Source: Candidatus Gastranaerophilales bacterium (lineage in GTDB: Bacteria; Cyanobacteriota; Vampirovibrionia; Gastranaerophilales; Gastranaerophilaceae). Taken from it: a stretch of 64,000 nt of DNA. Below are positions 37,875 through 46,838 of the stretch, piece after piece. A program made the translations under genes and the position numbers. The stretch's first letter is position 1; the number at the start of each line of letters is the position of its first letter. Location of the stretch: assembly GCA_944325875.1 (NCBI GenBank), contig CALVBU010000002.1, forward strand, positions 124,001 to 188,000. Reading direction: 5' to 3'. Below the pieces are notes generated by a model. It was not told the origin of the DNA and ran no database searches. It saw only the letters and a list, made by a program, of their open reading frames with translations.

Positions 37875-39293
37875 ATGCCAAATATTATACAACGAATTGA
37901 ACAAATATTAAAAGAAAAAGAACCTTTATCTTTAGAAACTTTAATTGATGAAATTAAGTCTATTGCATATATACAGGATAAAGTTGTTCTTGATGAAAAA
38001 CGAATTAAAAATCAGATTTTATTAATGTTACAGAAAAATAAAATATTGAAAGATTTTGAAAATCTATTGTACCTAAATACTCCTCAAAATATGTTTAAAA
38101 TACATAAACAATCTGGCATAACAATAAAACATTATTCTTCTAATCAAGAAATAACATTAGGCTCGCCAGGCATGAAACTATCTGCAGGTATGGTTATGAC
38201 ATTTGGAGATTATAAAATTATTGAAAATAATCCAGATTCATATTTTATGGTTTTAGATGTAGATTTGCCACTTAGATTAGAGGTAAATGAGCAATTACAT
38301 AATCCATATGTAATTAAAATAGGTAATAAGAATTATAATCTTTTTCATAAAATAAAAAAAAGAGGAGAGGAGAATTTTTCTTGTTTAGATACAAATTACT
38401 TACCATACTTTTCTTCATTACAGATTTCTGCACCTACAAACAAAGAATTACTAGAATTAGATAAAGTTCAATTGTTATATGACATATTAAAAAAAATAAA
38501 TAATGTAATAAATAATAAAATATTGGAGCAATGTATAAATTATAAAATCAATTTACCTTTTACATATGCCTATATAGATCCAAAACAACATAAAATAACC
38601 CCAATAACAAATACTATTGTTTTTTTAACAACGGATGTAGAAATTTTAGGGAAAAATATTACAAATGAATATCCAAGAGAAGAATTACGGAAATTACTTA
38701 ATTCGGAGAAAATTGTCTTACAAAATAAAATCGAAGATAATATAACCGAGTATAATTCAATTTATGATTTTAGTGGAAAAATTTTTCGTTTAACACATGA
38801 TTTCTCATTTTATATCAGACAAACTCCAGAAATTTTTAATAATATGAATGAAGAATTTATAAGGGATGTTTATTTATTTTGTACAAGAGTAGGAACAGAG
38901 TATACATGTGAAGCAGAAGCTTTTAATTATGATGGTAAATCTGATTTTAAAATTATATCAAATAATAAATATGAGTATATAATAGGAGAATTCAAATGGT
39001 GGACTGGTGACAAATCTATAGAAGAACTTTGTAACCAAGGCTTAGAAAAACATGTAACTGGCCAAGAAAAAGATATTTATTTGATAATGTTAAGTAGAAA
39101 TAATACAATAAATATTCCGAAAGAAAAATCTTTGAATTATATTCGTAGTAGATCTGAAATTTTAGAAGAATGTCACGATAATGTATTACCAGAAGGTTCA
39201 AAAGAGTGTTTTTATAAATTTAAAGCTAAAATAAAAAATAATGATGTAAATGTTATTTTTGCAATTATTGATTTGCACTATAAAAGAATCTAA
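37875..39293 (+). CDS. Candidate PD-(D/E)XK nuclease with N-terminal HTH
   Basis: 472 residues. The first 65 residues (IIQRIEQILKEKEPLSLETLIDEIKS to NLLYLN) look like a HARE/winged-helix DNA-binding module found on restriction enzymes. The C-terminal third has a candidate nuclease core: E346/E348 in CEAEAF, D357 in GKSDF, and E372-F-K374 in IIGEFKWW, that is E...D...ExK with usual spacing. The long middle part is unassigned. It follows the tail of a methyltransferase-like gene, so a restriction or defence role is likely, but no homology search was run. Confidence 0.55.
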   Translation: MPNIIQRIEQILKEKEPLSLETLIDEIKSIAYIQDKVVLDEKRIKNQILLMLQKNKILKDFENLLYLNTPQNMFKIHKQSGITIKHYSSNQEITLGSPGMKLSAGMVMTFGDYKIIENNPDSYFMVLDVDLPLRLEVNEQLHNPYVIKIGNKNYNLFHKIKKRGEENFSCLDTNYLPYFSSLQISAPTNKELLELDKVQLLYDILKKINNVINNKILEQCINYKINLPFTYAYIDPKQHKITPITNTIVFLTTDVEILGKNITNEYPREELRKLLNSEKIVLQNKIEDNITEYNSIYDFSGKIFRLTHDFSFYIRQTPEIFNNMNEEFIRDVYLFCTRVGTEYTCEAEAFNYDGKSDFKIISNNKYEYIIGEFKWWTGDKSIEELCNQGLEKHVTGQEKDIYLIMLSRNNTINIPKEKSLNYIRSRSEILEECHDNVLPEGSKECFYKFKAKIKNNDVNVIFAIIDLHYKRI

Positions 39294-39411
39294 AGTATAT
39301 TTATTACTTAATTTTGTGCTAAATTAGTCTAACTAATTAATTCCCCTAATTATAGTGCCAGTTTTCAGTTAGTAATGGAAACCATTAATTCTAATGTATA
39401 TTATATCTTTA

Positions 39412-39423
39412 AAACGACCGTTT
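39412..39423. promoter_or_regulatory. Palindrome AAACGACCGTTT, candidate recombination site
   Basis: A 5-bp inverted repeat around a 2-bp AC centre, the geometry of serine-recombinase crossover sites, 122 bp before the resolvase gene. The 39294-39544 gap holds no gene. Confidence 0.3.
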
Positions 39424-39544
39424 AAATTTTCGTCATCTATATATTGGAAATGGGTGACTTTTTGTTGATAGGATTGGAAAATAAAAATATAAAAATTACG
39501 TTTTTTCGATAGGGATAAACATTGTAACAACAGAAAGGGCGAAA

Positions 39545-40147
39545 ATGACCACATATGCATATCTACGTGTAAGTACGTTAGAGCAAAATACTGACAAAAA
39601 CAAACTGGAAGTTTTAAAGTTTGCAAACGATAAAAAACTTGGAAATATTGAATTTATAGAAGAACAGGTTAGTGGGAAAGCAAACTTTAAAGACCGACAA
39701 CTCGGTACATTATTAGAAAAAATGGGAAACGAGGATATTTTAATTGTCTCTGAACTTTCAAGAATTGCACGCTCAATCACACAAATATTTGAAGTAATAG
39801 ACATAACCAAGCGTAAGGGGATTACTCTGTATTCCATTAAAGAAGGTTTTTCAAATAATGATAAAAGTATTACTTCAACAGTAACGACTACAATATTTGC
39901 ACTTGTCGCGCAGATTGAAAGAGATTTAATTAGTTTGCGAACAATTGAAGCATTGCAATCAAAAAAAGCTCAAGGTATAAAACTTGGTAGACCAAAAGGC
40001 AAAGGTAAATCAAAGCTTGATAAAAATAGAGAAGAAATCCTTAAATTAATTGAGTTAAAAGTGCCAAAAACAATTATTGCAAAGCAATACAACACTTCAA
40101 CTGCAAATTTATACAGATTTATGAAACCTAATCAAAAATCAACTTAA
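39545..40147 (+). CDS. Small serine recombinase (resolvase/invertase)
   Basis: 200 residues. The catalytic serine S10 lies in YAYLRVSTLEQ, followed by EDILIVSELSRIARS with the active-site arginines. The E-helix TVTTTIFALVAQIERDLISLRT leads to a C-terminal HTH (EEILKLIELKVPKTIIAKQYNTSTANLYRFM). Length and domains fit Tn3-type resolvases or invertases. GAAAGGGCG precedes the start. It is followed by a large serine recombinase after 61 nt. Confidence 0.88.
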   Translation: MTTYAYLRVSTLEQNTDKNKLEVLKFANDKKLGNIEFIEEQVSGKANFKDRQLGTLLEKMGNEDILIVSELSRIARSITQIFEVIDITKRKGITLYSIKEGFSNNDKSITSTVTTTIFALVAQIERDLISLRTIEALQSKKAQGIKLGRPKGKGKSKLDKNREEILKLIELKVPKTIIAKQYNTSTANLYRFMKPNQKST

Positions 40148-40208
40148 ATAAAATAAAAATAAATTAGTATAATAATAAGACAAAAAAATTAATAGAGAGG
40201 ATTGAATA

Positions 40209-41717
40209 ATGGTTGTAATAAAAACTAAAGCAGTTTCTTATGCAAGAGTATCAAGTGCAGAGCAAGAAAAAGAAGGATTTTCTATTTCAGCTCAACAAGA
40301 TTTATTAAGAAGTTATGCGGAAAAAAATAATATACAAATTGTAAAAGAATTTTCAGAAGCTGAAACTGCCAAAGATGTTGGTAGACGTAAATTTAAGGAA
40401 ATGTTGCAATATCTTAAAAATAATAAAGATGTTACTACGATTTTAGTTGAAAAGACAGATAGGTTGTATCGTAATTTTAAAGATTATGTAGAATTAGATG
40501 TAGAAAAAACTGGATATACAGTTTGTTTAGTAAAAGAAGGTACAATTTTAACCGCAAATTCTACATCTCATGAGAAACTTACACATGGTTTTAAAGTTTT
40601 GATAGCAAAAAATTTTATAGATAATCTTACAGAAGAAACTCAAAAAGGTAGATTAAAGAAAGTTCAAGAAGGTTATTTTATATCTTATGTCCCATACGGC
40701 TATAAAAAATTAAATAAAAAAGATACTGAATTACATCCACAAAAATCAAAGTTTGTAAAAAGAGCATTTGAATTATATGCACAGGGGGATATATCTCTTA
40801 AAAATCTTACACAAAAATTATTTGATGAGGGGTTTATATATACACAAAGCAACCCTAAAATATCAACGGGTCATCTTGGGAAAATACTGTCAAATGAAAG
40901 CTATATTGGTTATATAAGACATTGTGGTAAATTATACAAGGGTAAACATCCTTCAATAGTATCAAAACAGTTATTTATGAAAGTCCAAAAAGCATTTAAA
41001 AAAGATGGTAAACCTGATACAAGAAATGGACATAGATTTTTATATAAAGGTTTATTAAAATGCGAAGAATGCGGGTGTGCAATTACATCTGAAATAAAAA
41101 AAGATAAGTGGATTTATTACCATTGTACTGGCAATTCAAAAACACAATGTTCACAAAAGAAAAACTATATTAAACAGGAAGAATTAGATTTACAGATTGA
41201 TGAAGCTATCAAACGTGTAGTAATAGATGATGAACTTGCGGATTATATCAATGCAATTCTTGAAGATAGTTATAAGGAAATGCAGCTTAATACAAAAGAA
41301 AAATACAATTATATAACAGCAGAGATTAAAAGAGCACAATCCCGTAAAGATAAATTACTCGAAATCTACATGGAAGGTGATATTCAAAAAGATGTATGGA
41401 CGAAAAAAACAATAGACATAGATACGCAGTTGAAGCAGTTAGAAAAACAACTTGAAATAATAAATTTGTCTGGAAAACAATTTATCAATGAGGGTACAAA
41501 TATTATTGAAGTCGCAAAGCAGACATATAACTTGTATAAACAGCAGACAACAGAAGAAAAACGTAGGTTGTTAAATATCATATTTGAAAATATTACTGTT
41601 AAAGATAGAGTTATACATTATACATATAGGAAACCATTTTGTTACTTTGCTCAATGTGATTTGAATGATTTAAATGGTATTGAGAGTTATATAAAACAAA
41701 ATATTACTAATCATTAA
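40209..41717 (+). CDS. Large serine recombinase (element integrase)
   Basis: 502 residues. The resolvase catalytic domain has S15 in YARVSSAEQEKEG; a recombinase domain (GYFISYVPYGYKK to GHLGKILSNESYIGYI) and a zinc-ribbon (CEECGCAITSE then YYHCTGNSKTQC, about residues 283-316) follow, then a coiled coil (about 365-425). This is the architecture of phage and ICE integrases acting between attP and attB. AGAGAGG precedes the ATG. Its stop overlaps a frameshifted minus-strand gene. It likely moved this element or one part of it. Confidence 0.9.
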   Translation: MVVIKTKAVSYARVSSAEQEKEGFSISAQQDLLRSYAEKNNIQIVKEFSEAETAKDVGRRKFKEMLQYLKNNKDVTTILVEKTDRLYRNFKDYVELDVEKTGYTVCLVKEGTILTANSTSHEKLTHGFKVLIAKNFIDNLTEETQKGRLKKVQEGYFISYVPYGYKKLNKKDTELHPQKSKFVKRAFELYAQGDISLKNLTQKLFDEGFIYTQSNPKISTGHLGKILSNESYIGYIRHCGKLYKGKHPSIVSKQLFMKVQKAFKKDGKPDTRNGHRFLYKGLLKCEECGCAITSEIKKDKWIYYHCTGNSKTQCSQKKNYIKQEELDLQIDEAIKRVVIDDELADYINAILEDSYKEMQLNTKEKYNYITAEIKRAQSRKDKLLEIYMEGDIQKDVWTKKTIDIDTQLKQLEKQLEIINLSGKQFINEGTNIIEVAKQTYNLYKQQTTEEKRRLLNIIFENITVKDRVIHYTYRKPFCYFAQCDLNDLNGIESYIKQNITNH

Positions 41718-42502: not shown

Positions 42503-42515
42503 TGTCTTACATTTT
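42503..42515 (+). repeat. Third copy of the TGTCTTACATTTT recombination-site half
   Basis: TGTCTTACATTTT is identical to the outer end of the left inverted repeat (43156-43168) and in the same orientation. A partial second arm, TATTTTGTAA, follows at 42529-42538. The two direct copies flank the tyrosine recombinase gene. Confidence 0.6.
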
Positions 42516-42570: not shown

Positions 42571-43113
42571 ATGTCAACAGTAGAACCAATTAGAAATAAA
42601 AAAGATATTCAAAAAGTTGAGAAAATTCTCGCAAAACAATGCAAACGTGATTTGTTATTGTTTACTATTGGAACAAACTGCGGACTTAGGATATCGGATA
42701 TTTTGAGATTAAATGTTGCGGATGTGAGAAACAAAACACACATACAACTAATAGAAAAGAAAACAGGTAAGTATAAAAAATTTCCTATAAATATAAAATT
42801 AAAGCCATTACTTGAAGATTTTATTACTGGCAGAAAAAATGATGAACCATTGTTTTTATCTCGTTGGGGGCACAGACTTGACAGAGTAACCGCATATTAT
42901 ATTATTCGAAATGCCTGCGAGCAAGCAAAACTACATGAAAAAATCGGTACTCATTCTATGAGAAAATCTTTTGGTTATCACCATTATCAGCAGTTTAAAG
43001 ATATTGTTATCTTACAGAAAATTTTTAATCATTCAAGCCCGCAAATTACATTAAGATATATAGGTATTGAGCAGGACGAAATAGATTCTTCATATAATAA
43101 TTTTGTATTATAA
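42571..43113 (+). CDS. Compact tyrosine recombinase (FimB/FimE-size)
   Basis: 180 residues, catalytic domain only. All active-site residues are present: R40 in GLRISD, K64 in IEKKTGK, H128-x-x-R131 in THSMRKSFG, H154 in FNHSS, and nucleophile Y163 in TLRYIG. It lacks the N-terminal core-binding domain of XerC/D or phage integrases, like FimB/FimE of phase-variable fimbriae. AAGGAGG precedes the ATG. Matching inverted repeats 44-235 bp downstream are likely its substrate. Confidence 0.88.
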   Translation: MSTVEPIRNKKDIQKVEKILAKQCKRDLLLFTIGTNCGLRISDILRLNVADVRNKTHIQLIEKKTGKYKKFPINIKLKPLLEDFITGRKNDEPLFLSRWGHRLDRVTAYYIIRNACEQAKLHEKIGTHSMRKSFGYHHYQQFKDIVILQKIFNHSSPQITLRYIGIEQDEIDSSYNNFVL

Positions 43114-43138: not shown

Positions 43139-43154
43139 ATGACATACATTTTGA
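43139..43154 (+). repeat. Degenerate extra half-site next to the left inverted repeat
   Basis: ATGACATACATTTTGA matches the adjoining ATGTCTTACATTTTAA at 13 of 16 positions, in direct tandem. It may be an accessory binding site for the recombinase. Confidence 0.4.
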
Positions 43155-43156
43155 AT

Positions 43157-43183
43157 GTCTTACATTTTAACTATTTTGTAAGA
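43157..43183 (+). repeat. Left 27-bp inverted repeat (IRL) of a putative invertible segment
   Basis: GTCTTACATTTTAACTATTT followed by TGTAAGA is the exact reverse complement of 43322-43348. Each repeat is itself a palindrome of TCTTACA and TGTAAGA arms around a 12-bp asymmetric centre, the layout of a tyrosine-recombinase core site. Confidence 0.8.
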
Positions 43184-43321
43184 TGAATTTCTAAAAACCA
43201 CTGCATTCATAGTATCACAAATAATATCTGCTTGCAAAAAATTATAAAAAATGTAAAGTGTTATTAATTTTTAAAAGGATTTTATCTTCGAAAATCAAGT
43301 ATATCAAGGCTTCAATAAATG
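43184..43321. mobile_element. Putative invertible promoter segment (138 bp)
   Basis: This AT-rich segment holds no ORF but has a near-consensus promoter on the minus strand (43209-43237). It is bounded by 27-bp perfect inverted repeats and adjoins a compact tyrosine recombinase. Inversion would turn the promoter toward the + strand genes beginning at 43405. As sequenced it points the other way. Confidence 0.65.
43209..43237 (-). promoter_or_regulatory. Promoter inside the invertible segment, currently facing left
   Basis: On the minus strand -35 TTGCAA (43232-43237), a 17-bp spacer, and an extended -10 TGATACTAT (hexamer 43209-43214). Transcription would run leftward through the left repeat and antisense to the recombinase 3' end. 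Confidence 0.65.
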
Positions 43322-43348
43322 TCTTACAAAATAGTTAAAATGTAAGAC
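43322..43348 (-). repeat. Right 27-bp inverted repeat (IRR) of a putative invertible segment
   Basis: TCTTACAAAATAGTTAAAAT followed by GTAAGAC is the exact reverse complement of 43157-43183. It ends 56 bp before the downstream ATG at 43405. Confidence 0.8.
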
Positions 43349-43404: not shown

Positions 43405-44058
43405 ATGGTTTTATTAAGTGATTTTGATAAGGTATTAGAGGAAAATTTATTTAATCCAATTTCAGAAGATATTAACTGTCGTTACAACTCATGGGAACAC
43501 TGTTATGCTTTTTTCTATAAAAATAAAGAAAAGATAATATGTGATGATATGCTGGATACAGCAGCATTAAATCTTGGGTTCTACCTTGGAAATTGGGGAA
43601 TGTTTAGAAAATCATTCTTAATGAACAAAGATTATAAAATTCATGTTCATGTTATTAAAAGATTGCTTAGCGAGTGTAAAGAATTATGGCAGCCCTATGA
43701 TAAAATTTCGTGGAATGATATACAAAAGGCAAATGATATTATTAATGAGGGTTATAAAGATATCTGCAAATCCAAAAGAGTTTCAAAAATTTTAATTTCA
43801 AAGATTTTATTAGGTATTTTTGCCTGTGTTCCTGCGTATGATCGATACTTTGTGCTTGCTGCAAAAAATAGCAATGGGCTTATTTATCATAACTATTCTG
43901 AACAAAGTTATAATGATGTAAAAAAGGTTCTTTCTACTCTTAGTTATGAAAACAATAGGCATTTATATGATGATAAACAGATAACTTATCCACCAATGAG
44001 ATTGCTTGACGCATATTTTTGGTTTAAGGGCAAGGAACTTGATAATAGAGCCAAATAA
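43405..44058 (+). CDS. SWEHCY / GCVPAYDRYF-type uncharacterised protein
   Basis: 217 residues. The motifs YNSWEHCYAFFYKN, ALNLGFYLGNWGMFRKSFLMNKDYKIHVHVI, and ILLGIFACVPAYDRYF match what I remember of a widespread family without a known function, found sporadically in bacteria, often in accessory DNA. It has no signal peptide. It is the first gene after the putative invertible promoter, with only a weak ribosome-binding site. It could be switched on and off with the following secreted and membrane genes. Confidence 0.65.
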   Translation: MVLLSDFDKVLEENLFNPISEDINCRYNSWEHCYAFFYKNKEKIICDDMLDTAALNLGFYLGNWGMFRKSFLMNKDYKIHVHVIKRLLSECKELWQPYDKISWNDIQKANDIINEGYKDICKSKRVSKILISKILLGIFACVPAYDRYFVLAAKNSNGLIYHNYSEQSYNDVKKVLSTLSYENNRHLYDDKQITYPPMRLLDAYFWFKGKELDNRAK

Positions 44059-44097: not shown

Positions 44098-46179
44098 ATG
44101 AAGAAAATATTATTATCAATAATATTATGTTTTTTGTTAGTAAACCCGACTTTATCTTCTGCATTGACAACAAATGAATTTGGGTTTGGCATTTCTTTAA
44201 ATCGAGTTGGCGATGATGTTATAATAGAAAATGTTATATCTAATTCAATTGCAGATAAGTTAGGTTTAAAAAATGGGCAAAAAATTATTAAATTTAACGG
44301 AAAAAAAATCAATAAAGTTAAAAATTCAGATATTGAAAATATTAACAGTAAATATAAATCATTAAAAATTACAACTTTTGATAATAAACAATACAAATTA
44401 AAATCCGAAGATATTTCATTATTAAATTCGTATAACCAAATTCAAGAAACTTATAACCAGAATACAAAATATAAAGTTACTCCGTATAAAACTGAAAAAA
44501 TTATCTTAGCTAATGATATTGAAAACAAACATGCTAAGTATGCAAATGCATATTTAAACTATGCTGATGCTATTGCAATTGAGAATTCAAAACTTTATGT
44601 TGATTTATTTAAAGTAACTGATGAAAATATAAAAATAGCACTAGAAAAAACTAAAAATAATGAGATTAATCCATATTCAGAACTATACAATTCAATTTAT
44701 CGGACAAATAAAACGTATGATATATATGGAGAAGCTTTTAAACAATTTCTAGAACTTTCTATATATAATGATGTAAATATTGACTTAATCCATAGGCAAA
44801 TATCAGAATTTAATGAACAGCAAAAAAAACAATTTGCGCAATTTGCTTATAATACTAGGATTGTAGCAAATCTATATAGTTATACGAATCGTGAGCTTAG
44901 TACGTATTTATTAAAACATACTATTAATGCAAACAAAACAGATATTTGGCAAAATGAACTTAAAGTAGAAAATAATATATATAATATAAAATACAAAGAA
45001 CTATGTAATCTTATTGCAACTTATAAAATAGAAATTAAAAAACCGGGTCCACTATCTAATCGTGAACAAATTACAGCAGGTATTGTTCCAAATTCAAAAT
45101 GGGTAGACGACAAGCAAATTATAGTACTTGCACAGGAAAAAGGTTATAATCCAAATAAGTCTCTAGATTTTGCAAGATTAAACACAAATAACCATACACA
45201 ATATACTTCTTTAAAACAATTAAATAATTATAAAGTACAAATACCCCTCAGTTTAGTTTATTCTTTGCCAGAAGGTGTTAAACAAATTGGATCTGAGGGT
45301 ACAGTAAGTAAGCCTAACGAATTTACTTCTATTATTCTTTTAGTTCAGAAAAGCATTATTTGTAATGCTAAAGGAGATATAAATAATGCTATTATAAATT
45401 TAAATAATGCTTTTTCAATTCTTGAAAAGAATGGATATACTCCTACCTCAAAGCACACATCAGATACAATGAAGGATTTATATTTATATAGAGCATATTT
45501 ATACCTTAAATCGGGTAATGAAAATTATTTATATGAAATATGCCAAAATATATATTATGCTTTATCTTTTTATAATGCTCTACCTTCTCGTAATATGTTT
45601 TATTCATCTAATTTACACAGTAAAGAATTTTTGCATAACGGTATTTCAGCTTATGAGCAACGTAATTTGATTTATGAAATATTAGATGATAAAAATATTT
45701 CATCTTATACAAAGCACGAAGTATACAGATATATTATTTCAATTCTAAACACTGAAGTTGGTACTTATATAACATTACCTGCTATAGCAAGTTATATTGA
45801 ATATATATATAGCCTTGATGATTCAGATCCGTTATTTACAGAACTGAGGAAAAATAAAACACAAATTTTAAATTCTTATATCTCAACACTTAGGGGTTCA
45901 TATGCTCTAATTTCAAAAGGAATTTTAATCATGGCAAGTGGACAGTTCAATGAAGGATGTAATATAGTATATAATGGATTTAAAGGACTAAATTTAGATG
46001 AAAGAGAATATGCTTCTTATTTAATTCATTATTCGTTATTTATATTAAGAACATACGATTTAAATTATTTAAATTTACCTAATGCTGTGAAACTTAATGA
46101 TCCTAAAATCGAACTATTAGAATCTTACCGAAATTTAATTTATAAACATCACAGAGAATTTCAAATGATTAGGAGATAA
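44098..46179 (+). CDS. Exported PDZ-domain protein (693 aa)
   Basis: Signal peptide MKKILLSIILCFLLVNPTLS to about residue 24. Residues about 25-105 form a PDZ domain: FGFGISLNRVGDDVIIENV, then SIADKLGLKNGQKIIKFNGKKI, which places the ligand-binding loop and the typical GL-x-x-G-D-x-I motif. The remainder (105-693) is helical with TPR-like stretches (SIICNAKGDINNAIINLNNAF), and has no protease motif. It probably works as an envelope scaffold. GGAGTG precedes the ATG; the next gene starts 2 nt after its stop. Confidence 0.7.
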   Translation: MKKILLSIILCFLLVNPTLSSALTTNEFGFGISLNRVGDDVIIENVISNSIADKLGLKNGQKIIKFNGKKINKVKNSDIENINSKYKSLKITTFDNKQYKLKSEDISLLNSYNQIQETYNQNTKYKVTPYKTEKIILANDIENKHAKYANAYLNYADAIAIENSKLYVDLFKVTDENIKIALEKTKNNEINPYSELYNSIYRTNKTYDIYGEAFKQFLELSIYNDVNIDLIHRQISEFNEQQKKQFAQFAYNTRIVANLYSYTNRELSTYLLKHTINANKTDIWQNELKVENNIYNIKYKELCNLIATYKIEIKKPGPLSNREQITAGIVPNSKWVDDKQIIVLAQEKGYNPNKSLDFARLNTNNHTQYTSLKQLNNYKVQIPLSLVYSLPEGVKQIGSEGTVSKPNEFTSIILLVQKSIICNAKGDINNAIINLNNAFSILEKNGYTPTSKHTSDTMKDLYLYRAYLYLKSGNENYLYEICQNIYYALSFYNALPSRNMFYSSNLHSKEFLHNGISAYEQRNLIYEILDDKNISSYTKHEVYRYIISILNTEVGTYITLPAIASYIEYIYSLDDSDPLFTELRKNKTQILNSYISTLRGSYALISKGILIMASGQFNEGCNIVYNGFKGLNLDEREYASYLIHYSLFILRTYDLNYLNLPNAVKLNDPKIELLESYRNLIYKHHREFQMIRR

Positions 46180-46181
46180 TT

Positions 46182-46838
46182 ATGAAAATAGATATTAAAA
46201 TAGTTATAGGTTTGATTTTATTATTTTTAATAACCATTTTCGGATTACTATATACAAAAGAAACAAAAACAGTACTAAATAATAAAGTGCAAGAAAATAC
46301 AAATAAAAATATACCGAATATACCTCTGCAAATAAATAACACTACATTAAGTTGTGAATCCGATGAAACAAAAAGTGTTGTAATAAATATATTTCAGGAA
46401 AATGATAATTATTACAAGTATATTGATGAAAACTCTATCGCAGCCCTGAACTTAAAATATCCTGCAGCAGAAAATTATGATAGTAATATAGATAGGTATG
46501 AATGTACTGGCAAAATAGTTATGAATGCAAAAGGATTGGGTTTTCTTCCTTCCGAGCAGAATTATAATAATAATTATTATAATACAGTTCGTAGTTATTC
46601 TGAATATTTGAAAGGCTATGATACATATGAAATAGATGTAAGATATAGTGTACAAATGTCAGAAGGCAGTTTACTTGTAAAAGTTTCAAGTTACGATTTA
46701 CAATACAACGGCAAATTAAGTTGCAAAAAAACATCTTGTAATGGAATAATTGACAAAAAAGTATACGCTCAGAAACAACAACGAGAAAAAAGAATGCAAT
46801 TAAAAAAAGAAAGTGAAACAATGGTATTACCAGAATAA
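46182..46838 (+). CDS. Membrane-anchored uncharacterised protein
   Basis: 218 residues. One N-terminal membrane helix (IVIGLILLFLITIFGLLYT, about residues 6-25) is followed by an extracytoplasmic domain rich in Asn and Tyr, with four cysteines (SCESDE, YECTGK, SCKKTSC) that could form disulfides. The C-terminus is charged. It starts 2 nt after the PDZ gene stop, so the two are coupled. No family recognised. Confidence 0.65.
   Translation: MKIDIKIVIGLILLFLITIFGLLYTKETKTVLNNKVQENTNKNIPNIPLQINNTTLSCESDETKSVVINIFQENDNYYKYIDENSIAALNLKYPAAENYDSNIDRYECTGKIVMNAKGLGFLPSEQNYNNNYYNTVRSYSEYLKGYDTYEIDVRYSVQMSEGSLLVKVSSYDLQYNGKLSCKKTSCNGIIDKKVYAQKQQREKRMQLKKESETMVLPE

Follow-up and report, generated by a model that had tools for sequence, protein, structure and literature searches.

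Two perfect inverted copies of a 27-bp sequence (43157–43183 and 43322–43348) lie between a small recombinase gene and a group of three genes in a genome of Candidatus Gastranaerophilales, with a gap of 138 nt between them. Is this arrangement a promoter-bearing DNA segment that the neighboring enzyme flips, and, if so, in which state was it sequenced? In the window, i.e., the whole stretch of 64,000 nucleotides that was analyzed, this pair is the longest perfect inverted repeat with a gap of ≤500 nt. The runner-up is 18 bp, and the chance expectation for such a 27-bp repeat is ~6e-8 at the base composition of the window.

Repeats, recombinase, and cargo at the locus

The features of the locus are listed below in window coordinates.

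42571–43113, plus strand: catalytic-domain-only tyrosine recombinase of 180 aa, proposed invertase (PF00589, E = 1.2e-24)
43157–43183, plus strand: left inverted repeat, putative recombinase core site
43184–43321, no strand: putative invertible segment of 138 bp, with homologous segments in both orientations in relatives
43209–43221, minus strand: putative extended −10 promoter element TTTGTGATACTAT, based on motif enrichment and a constant distance to the repeat ahead
43232–43237, minus strand: weak −35-like TTGCAA, 17 nt from the −10 element and partly conserved in genomes G136 and G266
43322–43348, minus strand: right inverted repeat, putative recombinase core site
43405–44058, plus strand: cargo ORF1, 217 aa, predicted all-alpha protein
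44098–46179, plus strand: cargo ORF2, 693 aa, apparent signal peptide and PDZ domain (PF00595, E = 1.7e-6)
46182–46838, plus strand: cargo ORF3, 218 aa, N-terminal hydrophobic segment, no family

Each 27-bp arm consists of TCTTACA, 12 nt, and TGTAAGA, and an asymmetric crossover core, TAACTA, is located at about 43168–43173 in the left repeat. The stop codon of the recombinase is at 43113, and the left repeat begins 43 nt further right; the cargo starts 56 nt past the right repeat. The initial annotation had already pointed out the repeats with their segment, the small recombinase 43 bp to the left, a three-gene cargo beginning at 43405, and a palindrome with an asymmetric center resembling the core site of a tyrosine recombinase. 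Its coordinates were exact, the recombinase and the three-gene cargo were confirmed, and the same site anatomy was seen over 52 distinct repeat pairs, as described below. The contig runs unbroken through the locus, and the assembly contains one orientation. Incomplete half-sites of the repeat, resembling TTACATTTT or its complement, are also present upstream of the recombinase (42503–42515), to the left of the left repeat (43145–43153), and in the middle of the segment (43247–43257). Accessory half-sites beyond the segment and at its middle showed no family-wide enrichment, and we do not claim them here because they are suggestive only in the subgroup of the window.

The recombinase has a Phage_integrase catalytic domain with the R-K-H-R-H/W-Y residues of the tyrosine recombinase superfamily, and all six catalytic residues are intact (R40-K64-H128-R131-H154-Y163). 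It represents the catalytic half only and does not have the N-terminal core-binding domain of XerC/XerD. Its scores missed the cut-offs for XerC/XerD (TIGR02224/TIGR02225; 68.8 versus 335 and 65.9 versus 330 bits) as well as those for FimB/FimE-type invertases (NCBIfam PRK09870/PRK09871; 35.7 versus 221 and 43.7 versus 222 bits). The protein is related to phage integrases (PHROG 216), and its best contig matches in the GTDB genome set were Candidatus Gastranaerophilales gut MAGs, which identifies the host as a gut melainabacterium. Small "site-specific integrase" genes of Firmicutes phages and plasmids are ~47–53% identical to it over the full length, and they were rejected as switch carriers since no comparable repeat pair adjoins them in the eight records checked.

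ORF1 homologues were found in seven of 288 family genomes, including that of the window, and three of these genomes (G087, G219, and G190) have no adjacent recombinase in the stretch read. The all-alpha fold of ORF1 was predicted by a fairly confident model (pLDDT 83). The sequence has no match in Pfam, PHROG, PADLOC, or NCBIfam, and the model has no PDB fold match at E ≤ 0.001. ORF2 is apparently a secreted PDZ protein. At another locus (L197, G138:C23), a resolvase gene comes after the ORF1 operon, and beyond it lie a second recombinase, a switch, and glycosyltransferase genes; by its gene order, this locus is read as two switches in series. To the left of the window switch, a 472-aa protein (37875–39293) matches the PADLOC candidate defense model PDC-S54 (E = 1.6e-13), and a resolvase and a large serine recombinase lie beside it (39545–41717). 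This region (37875–41717) is possibly a mobile defense island.

The cassette family and its putative promoter

Recombinase homologues (E ≤ 1e-30) were found in 108 of the 240 genomes sampled from the class, and, among the matches listed, all genomes with homologues fall within the window's own family. The survey comprised 131 distinct copies, ten of them in one genome (G138), and 113 had enough downstream sequence for a repeat test in which a pair required at least 19 of 24 matches and pieces of the same loci served as controls. A repeat pair adjoined the recombinase in 67 of these 113 copies. At least 20 of 24 matches were reached by 60 copies, compared with two of 154 control pieces, and about 40% of the testable copies had no detectable adjoining pair. 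The catalytic residues are retained in 123 of 124 family copies. The pair typically lies ~40 nt after the recombinase stop with a median gap of 142 nt, and its sequence varies from locus to locus, whereas the two arms within one locus match each other. The average site over the 52 distinct pairs is palindromic at positions 6–11 from the center and non-palindromic at the central four positions, where the arm-to-arm identity is 94–98%. As judged from sequence, the site has the build of a tyrosine-recombinase core, its crossover region asymmetric and its two copies inverted relative to each other. Repeats without a recombinase were not seen in relatives, all loci examined having been located through the recombinase.

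Glycan genes are the commonest first genes past the right repeat in the family. They include GT2 glycosyltransferases (11/53), sugar transferases, Stealth capsule proteins, epimerases, and an aminotransferase. Non-glycan first genes encode LuxR-type HTH proteins, in prophage-like contexts, and large, apparently secreted proteins. The relatives would mostly switch glycan loci; the cargo of the window differs from most of theirs in not being such a locus.

A near-consensus promoter facing away from the cargo had been proposed within the segment. Its positions, 17-nt spacer, and strand were as described, and the direction agrees with the motif strand and with the relatives, but the consensus score is no better than that of shuffled segments (p ~0.22). 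Likewise, consensus sigma-70 scoring across all segments gave p < 0.05 in only six of 134 strand tests and did not reach significance. Because of this, our promoter assignment rests on motif conservation. The −10 region of the window (TGA followed by TACTAT at 43209–43217, minus strand) belongs to an extended −10 motif, TTTRTGnTAnnnT, which 30 of the 54 non-redundant segments contain. Shuffled segments gave a mean of 1.3 (max 5 of 200), and one of 49 flank controls had the motif. The enrichment is partly post hoc, as the pattern was picked after inspection of several segments. The position of the motif was outside that choice: on either strand, the repeat ahead is 12–34 nt away from its last base in 31 of 36 occurrences, with a typical distance of about 26 nt. 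Among the positions left free by the pattern, a further A is conserved at −10 position 5 (83%). The motif lies ≤120 nt upstream of genes in 36% of cases, compared with 6% for random positions (sixfold; the count includes the switches themselves) and 2% for the reversed motif. Its distribution is therefore that of an ordinary promoter element in this lineage.

The motif points away from the cargo in 20 segments and toward it in 11, and one segment has both; this bias is not significant (binomial p 0.15). The 20 of 31 cases in which it points at the 3′ end of the recombinase gene would fit a segment that inverts but has its main output leftward, serving in the sequenced orientation as antisense control of the recombinase while the cargo is expressed independently. 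We consider this improbable, as glycan biosynthesis and other surface genes lie directly past the right repeat in most loci and the right repeat of the window is only 56 nt from the cargo. With the cargo as the main output, the window segment is, from the strand of its motif, in the "away" (OFF) orientation.

Several family members depart from the common layout. A prophage-type subgroup (L123, L035–L045, L057, L068, L074, and L183–L188) has the repeats and a conserved segment, but the segment has one orientation in all loci compared and the motif is mostly absent; some family members may therefore not be active promoter switches. A LuxR-type HTH gene is often next in this subgroup, to which the second copy in the genome of the window (L123, G000:C36:635-1174, on a 3.5-kb contig) also belongs. 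On viral contigs, only prophage-type relatives were found, plus one pair with the motif facing the cargo. Longer segments of 270–300 nt are present in L082, L077, L144, and L151, with a third repeat copy in L082 and two promoter motifs in tandem in L082, L144, and L151, which suggests multi-state switches. A Helicobacter record (L097, Helicobacter sp. 11S02629-2, NZ_MLAN01000004.1) contains a recombinase with 61% identity and a repeat pair with 23/24 matches, a possible case of cross-phylum cassette transfer.

Six loci (L129, L130, L158, L134, L160, and L043) contain a second recombinase-like gene (~175–199 aa, 27–42% identical), which in five loci is the first gene after the right repeat or overlaps it. 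Most catalytic residues are gone from these proteins (residue strings RQARQF, KIDRQF, KKERHY, D-VRHF, and NDARQF), and the tyrosine is replaced by Phe in five of the six. They are candidates for dead-enzyme regulators of switching. We tentatively suggest that the Gastranaerophilales have undergone a lineage-specific expansion of flip cassettes, placed mostly before glycan loci and some having feedback on switching through a dead paralogue. A single genome would then hold as many as about ten recombinase copies, with a separate site sequence for each, and in some cassettes the dead paralogue would be the first gene under the invertible promoter.

Segment orientation in relatives and the proposed mechanism

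Inversion was observed directly between two related loci, L120 (G143) and L039 (G053), whose recombinase is a paralogue 63% identical to that of the window and occupies a different locus. Their recombinase genes are identical (540/540 nt), as are the 800 nt upstream, and the downstream flanks are homologous in the normal direction. The segment between their 29-bp repeats is identical (257/257 nt) only as the reverse complement. Within the subtype of the window, we compared the segments of two ORF1-carrying genomes, G136 and G266, in which the recombinase is 89% and 90% identical, respectively. The window segment aligned with that of G136 in the forward direction (107 versus 40 inverted; null maximum 68) and with that of G266 in the inverted direction (105 versus 50 forward; null maximum 61), and G136 and G266 aligned with each other in the inverted direction (112 versus 51 forward; null maximum 60). 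The switch is therefore in opposite states in close relatives. The inverted arrangement that the initial annotation had recommended looking for in related genomes was thus present, both in G266 relative to the window and in the L120/L039 pair.

Assembly breaks also coincide with the repeats. In G266, the contig with the recombinase and the contig with the cargo overlap by exactly 77 nt, starting from the first base of the right repeat. A de Bruijn assembler produces such an exact overlap at a repeat if both orientations coexist, and we infer that this is the case here, although some other strain variation could fall at exactly that base. Both flanking contigs in G116 stop flush at the repeat. 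Of 131 recombinase copies, 18 have a contig end ≤200 nt downstream, and only one has a contig end within the same distance upstream (p 4e-5). The inversion in related loci, the assembly breaks at the repeats, and the occurrence of the motif on either strand all bear out the invertible-promoter reading with which the analysis began.

The single orientation in the window assembly and the constant orientation in the prophage-type subgroup would also be expected if the repeats were paired operators or autoregulation sites of the recombinase, or if the switch were a locked relic whose segment no longer inverts. This is quite improbable, since opposite orientations occur within the window's own subtype, the family pair shows an exact inversion, and the two arms share the same asymmetric core, a requirement of strand exchange. 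Highly improbable is a role of the repeats as integration attachment sites of a mobile element, folded as single strands in the style of CTX phage or integron attC: the kinship of the recombinase to phage integrases and the mobile-element genes at 39545–41717 would suit it, but the outward promoter motif keeps a fixed distance from the repeat, the cargo varies between loci and yet consists mostly of glycan genes, and we rejected the folded-att and integron readings because the flanks keep their place while the segment inverts.

The locus has the features of an inverton: a perfect repeat pair (27 bp, 138-nt gap) bounds a short intergenic segment, a putatively active recombinase with intact RKHRHY residues lies nearby, a putative promoter with the conserved extended −10 motif is located inside the segment, and both orientations are present among homologous loci. 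Here, we propose with high confidence that it is a self-contained phase-variation switch, in which a promoter segment is flipped by its own recombinase. The recombinase (42571–43113) would bind both inverted core sites, and strand exchange inside the asymmetric 6-bp core would flip the 138-bp segment, as in the related loci. In the sequenced state, the promoter would be directed leftward, across the left repeat and into the 3′ end of the recombinase gene in antisense, and because of this direction the cargo at 43405 would be without this promoter (OFF). In silico inversion places TTTGTGATACTAT on the plus strand from 43284, ~25 nt ahead of the right repeat; from there, the promoter would fire through the right repeat into ORF1–3 with a ~100-nt leader (ON). 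The action of this recombinase on these sites, continued flipping of the segment, and transcription of ORF1–3 from the inverted promoter are all inferred from the sequence. As the segment flips, the population would become a mixture of cells that express the cargo and cells that do not. No terminator was found in a search at the locus; therefore, OFF may be leaky, and transcription running on past the recombinase gene could give some cargo expression. Speculatively, leftward antisense transcription could also damp recombinase expression. Very probably, then, a gut cyanobacterium turns a gene cluster on and off by DNA flipping.

Significance and comparison with known systems

Gut Melainabacteria, which are relatives of cyanobacteria that do not photosynthesize, are known almost entirely through metagenomes. 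The present results provide sequence evidence for phase variation by DNA inversion in this group, and the signature of site, motif, and recombinase allows switch states to be read from existing metagenomes. The glycan cargo of the relatives points to phase-variable surface glycans in this lineage, a situation also found in Bacteroides. An inverton is a known kind of element, but in this lineage it appears to be undescribed. In agreement with the initial annotation, a literature search, with the Jiang 2019 inverton survey outside its scope, found no work connecting invertible promoters or DNA inversion to the Melainabacteria or the Gastranaerophilales. One paper that mentions both "Melainabacteria" and "phase variation" is, by title and abstract, a flagellin survey.

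Among known systems, fimS with FimB/FimE, hyxS, and ipuS of Escherichia coli resemble the window switch in layout, with a tyrosine recombinase beside a short promoter segment bounded by inverted repeats. The ipuS switch drives expression of a surface protein and of a LuxR-type gene (PMC6083910). In contrast to the fimS type, the window recombinase lies far below the curated FimB/FimE cut-offs, the sites of its family are longer and nearly palindromic, with a sequence that varies among copies, and the phylum is different. The RecV-dependent switches of Clostridioides difficile and PsrA of Streptococcus pneumoniae share DNA inversion mediated by a tyrosine recombinase (PMC5386303, PMC7096588), a likeness of mechanism only. 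In the capsule-locus invertons of gut Bacteroidota and Akkermansia, invertible promoters head glycan loci, often near tyrosine recombinase genes (PMC11892184, PMC13343947). The Akkermansia repeat motif, CGGATT..AATCCG, is unlike the family sites described here. Each Gastranaerophilales switch, moreover, usually has its own recombinase immediately upstream, and the switch of the window stands before a cargo other than a glycan locus.
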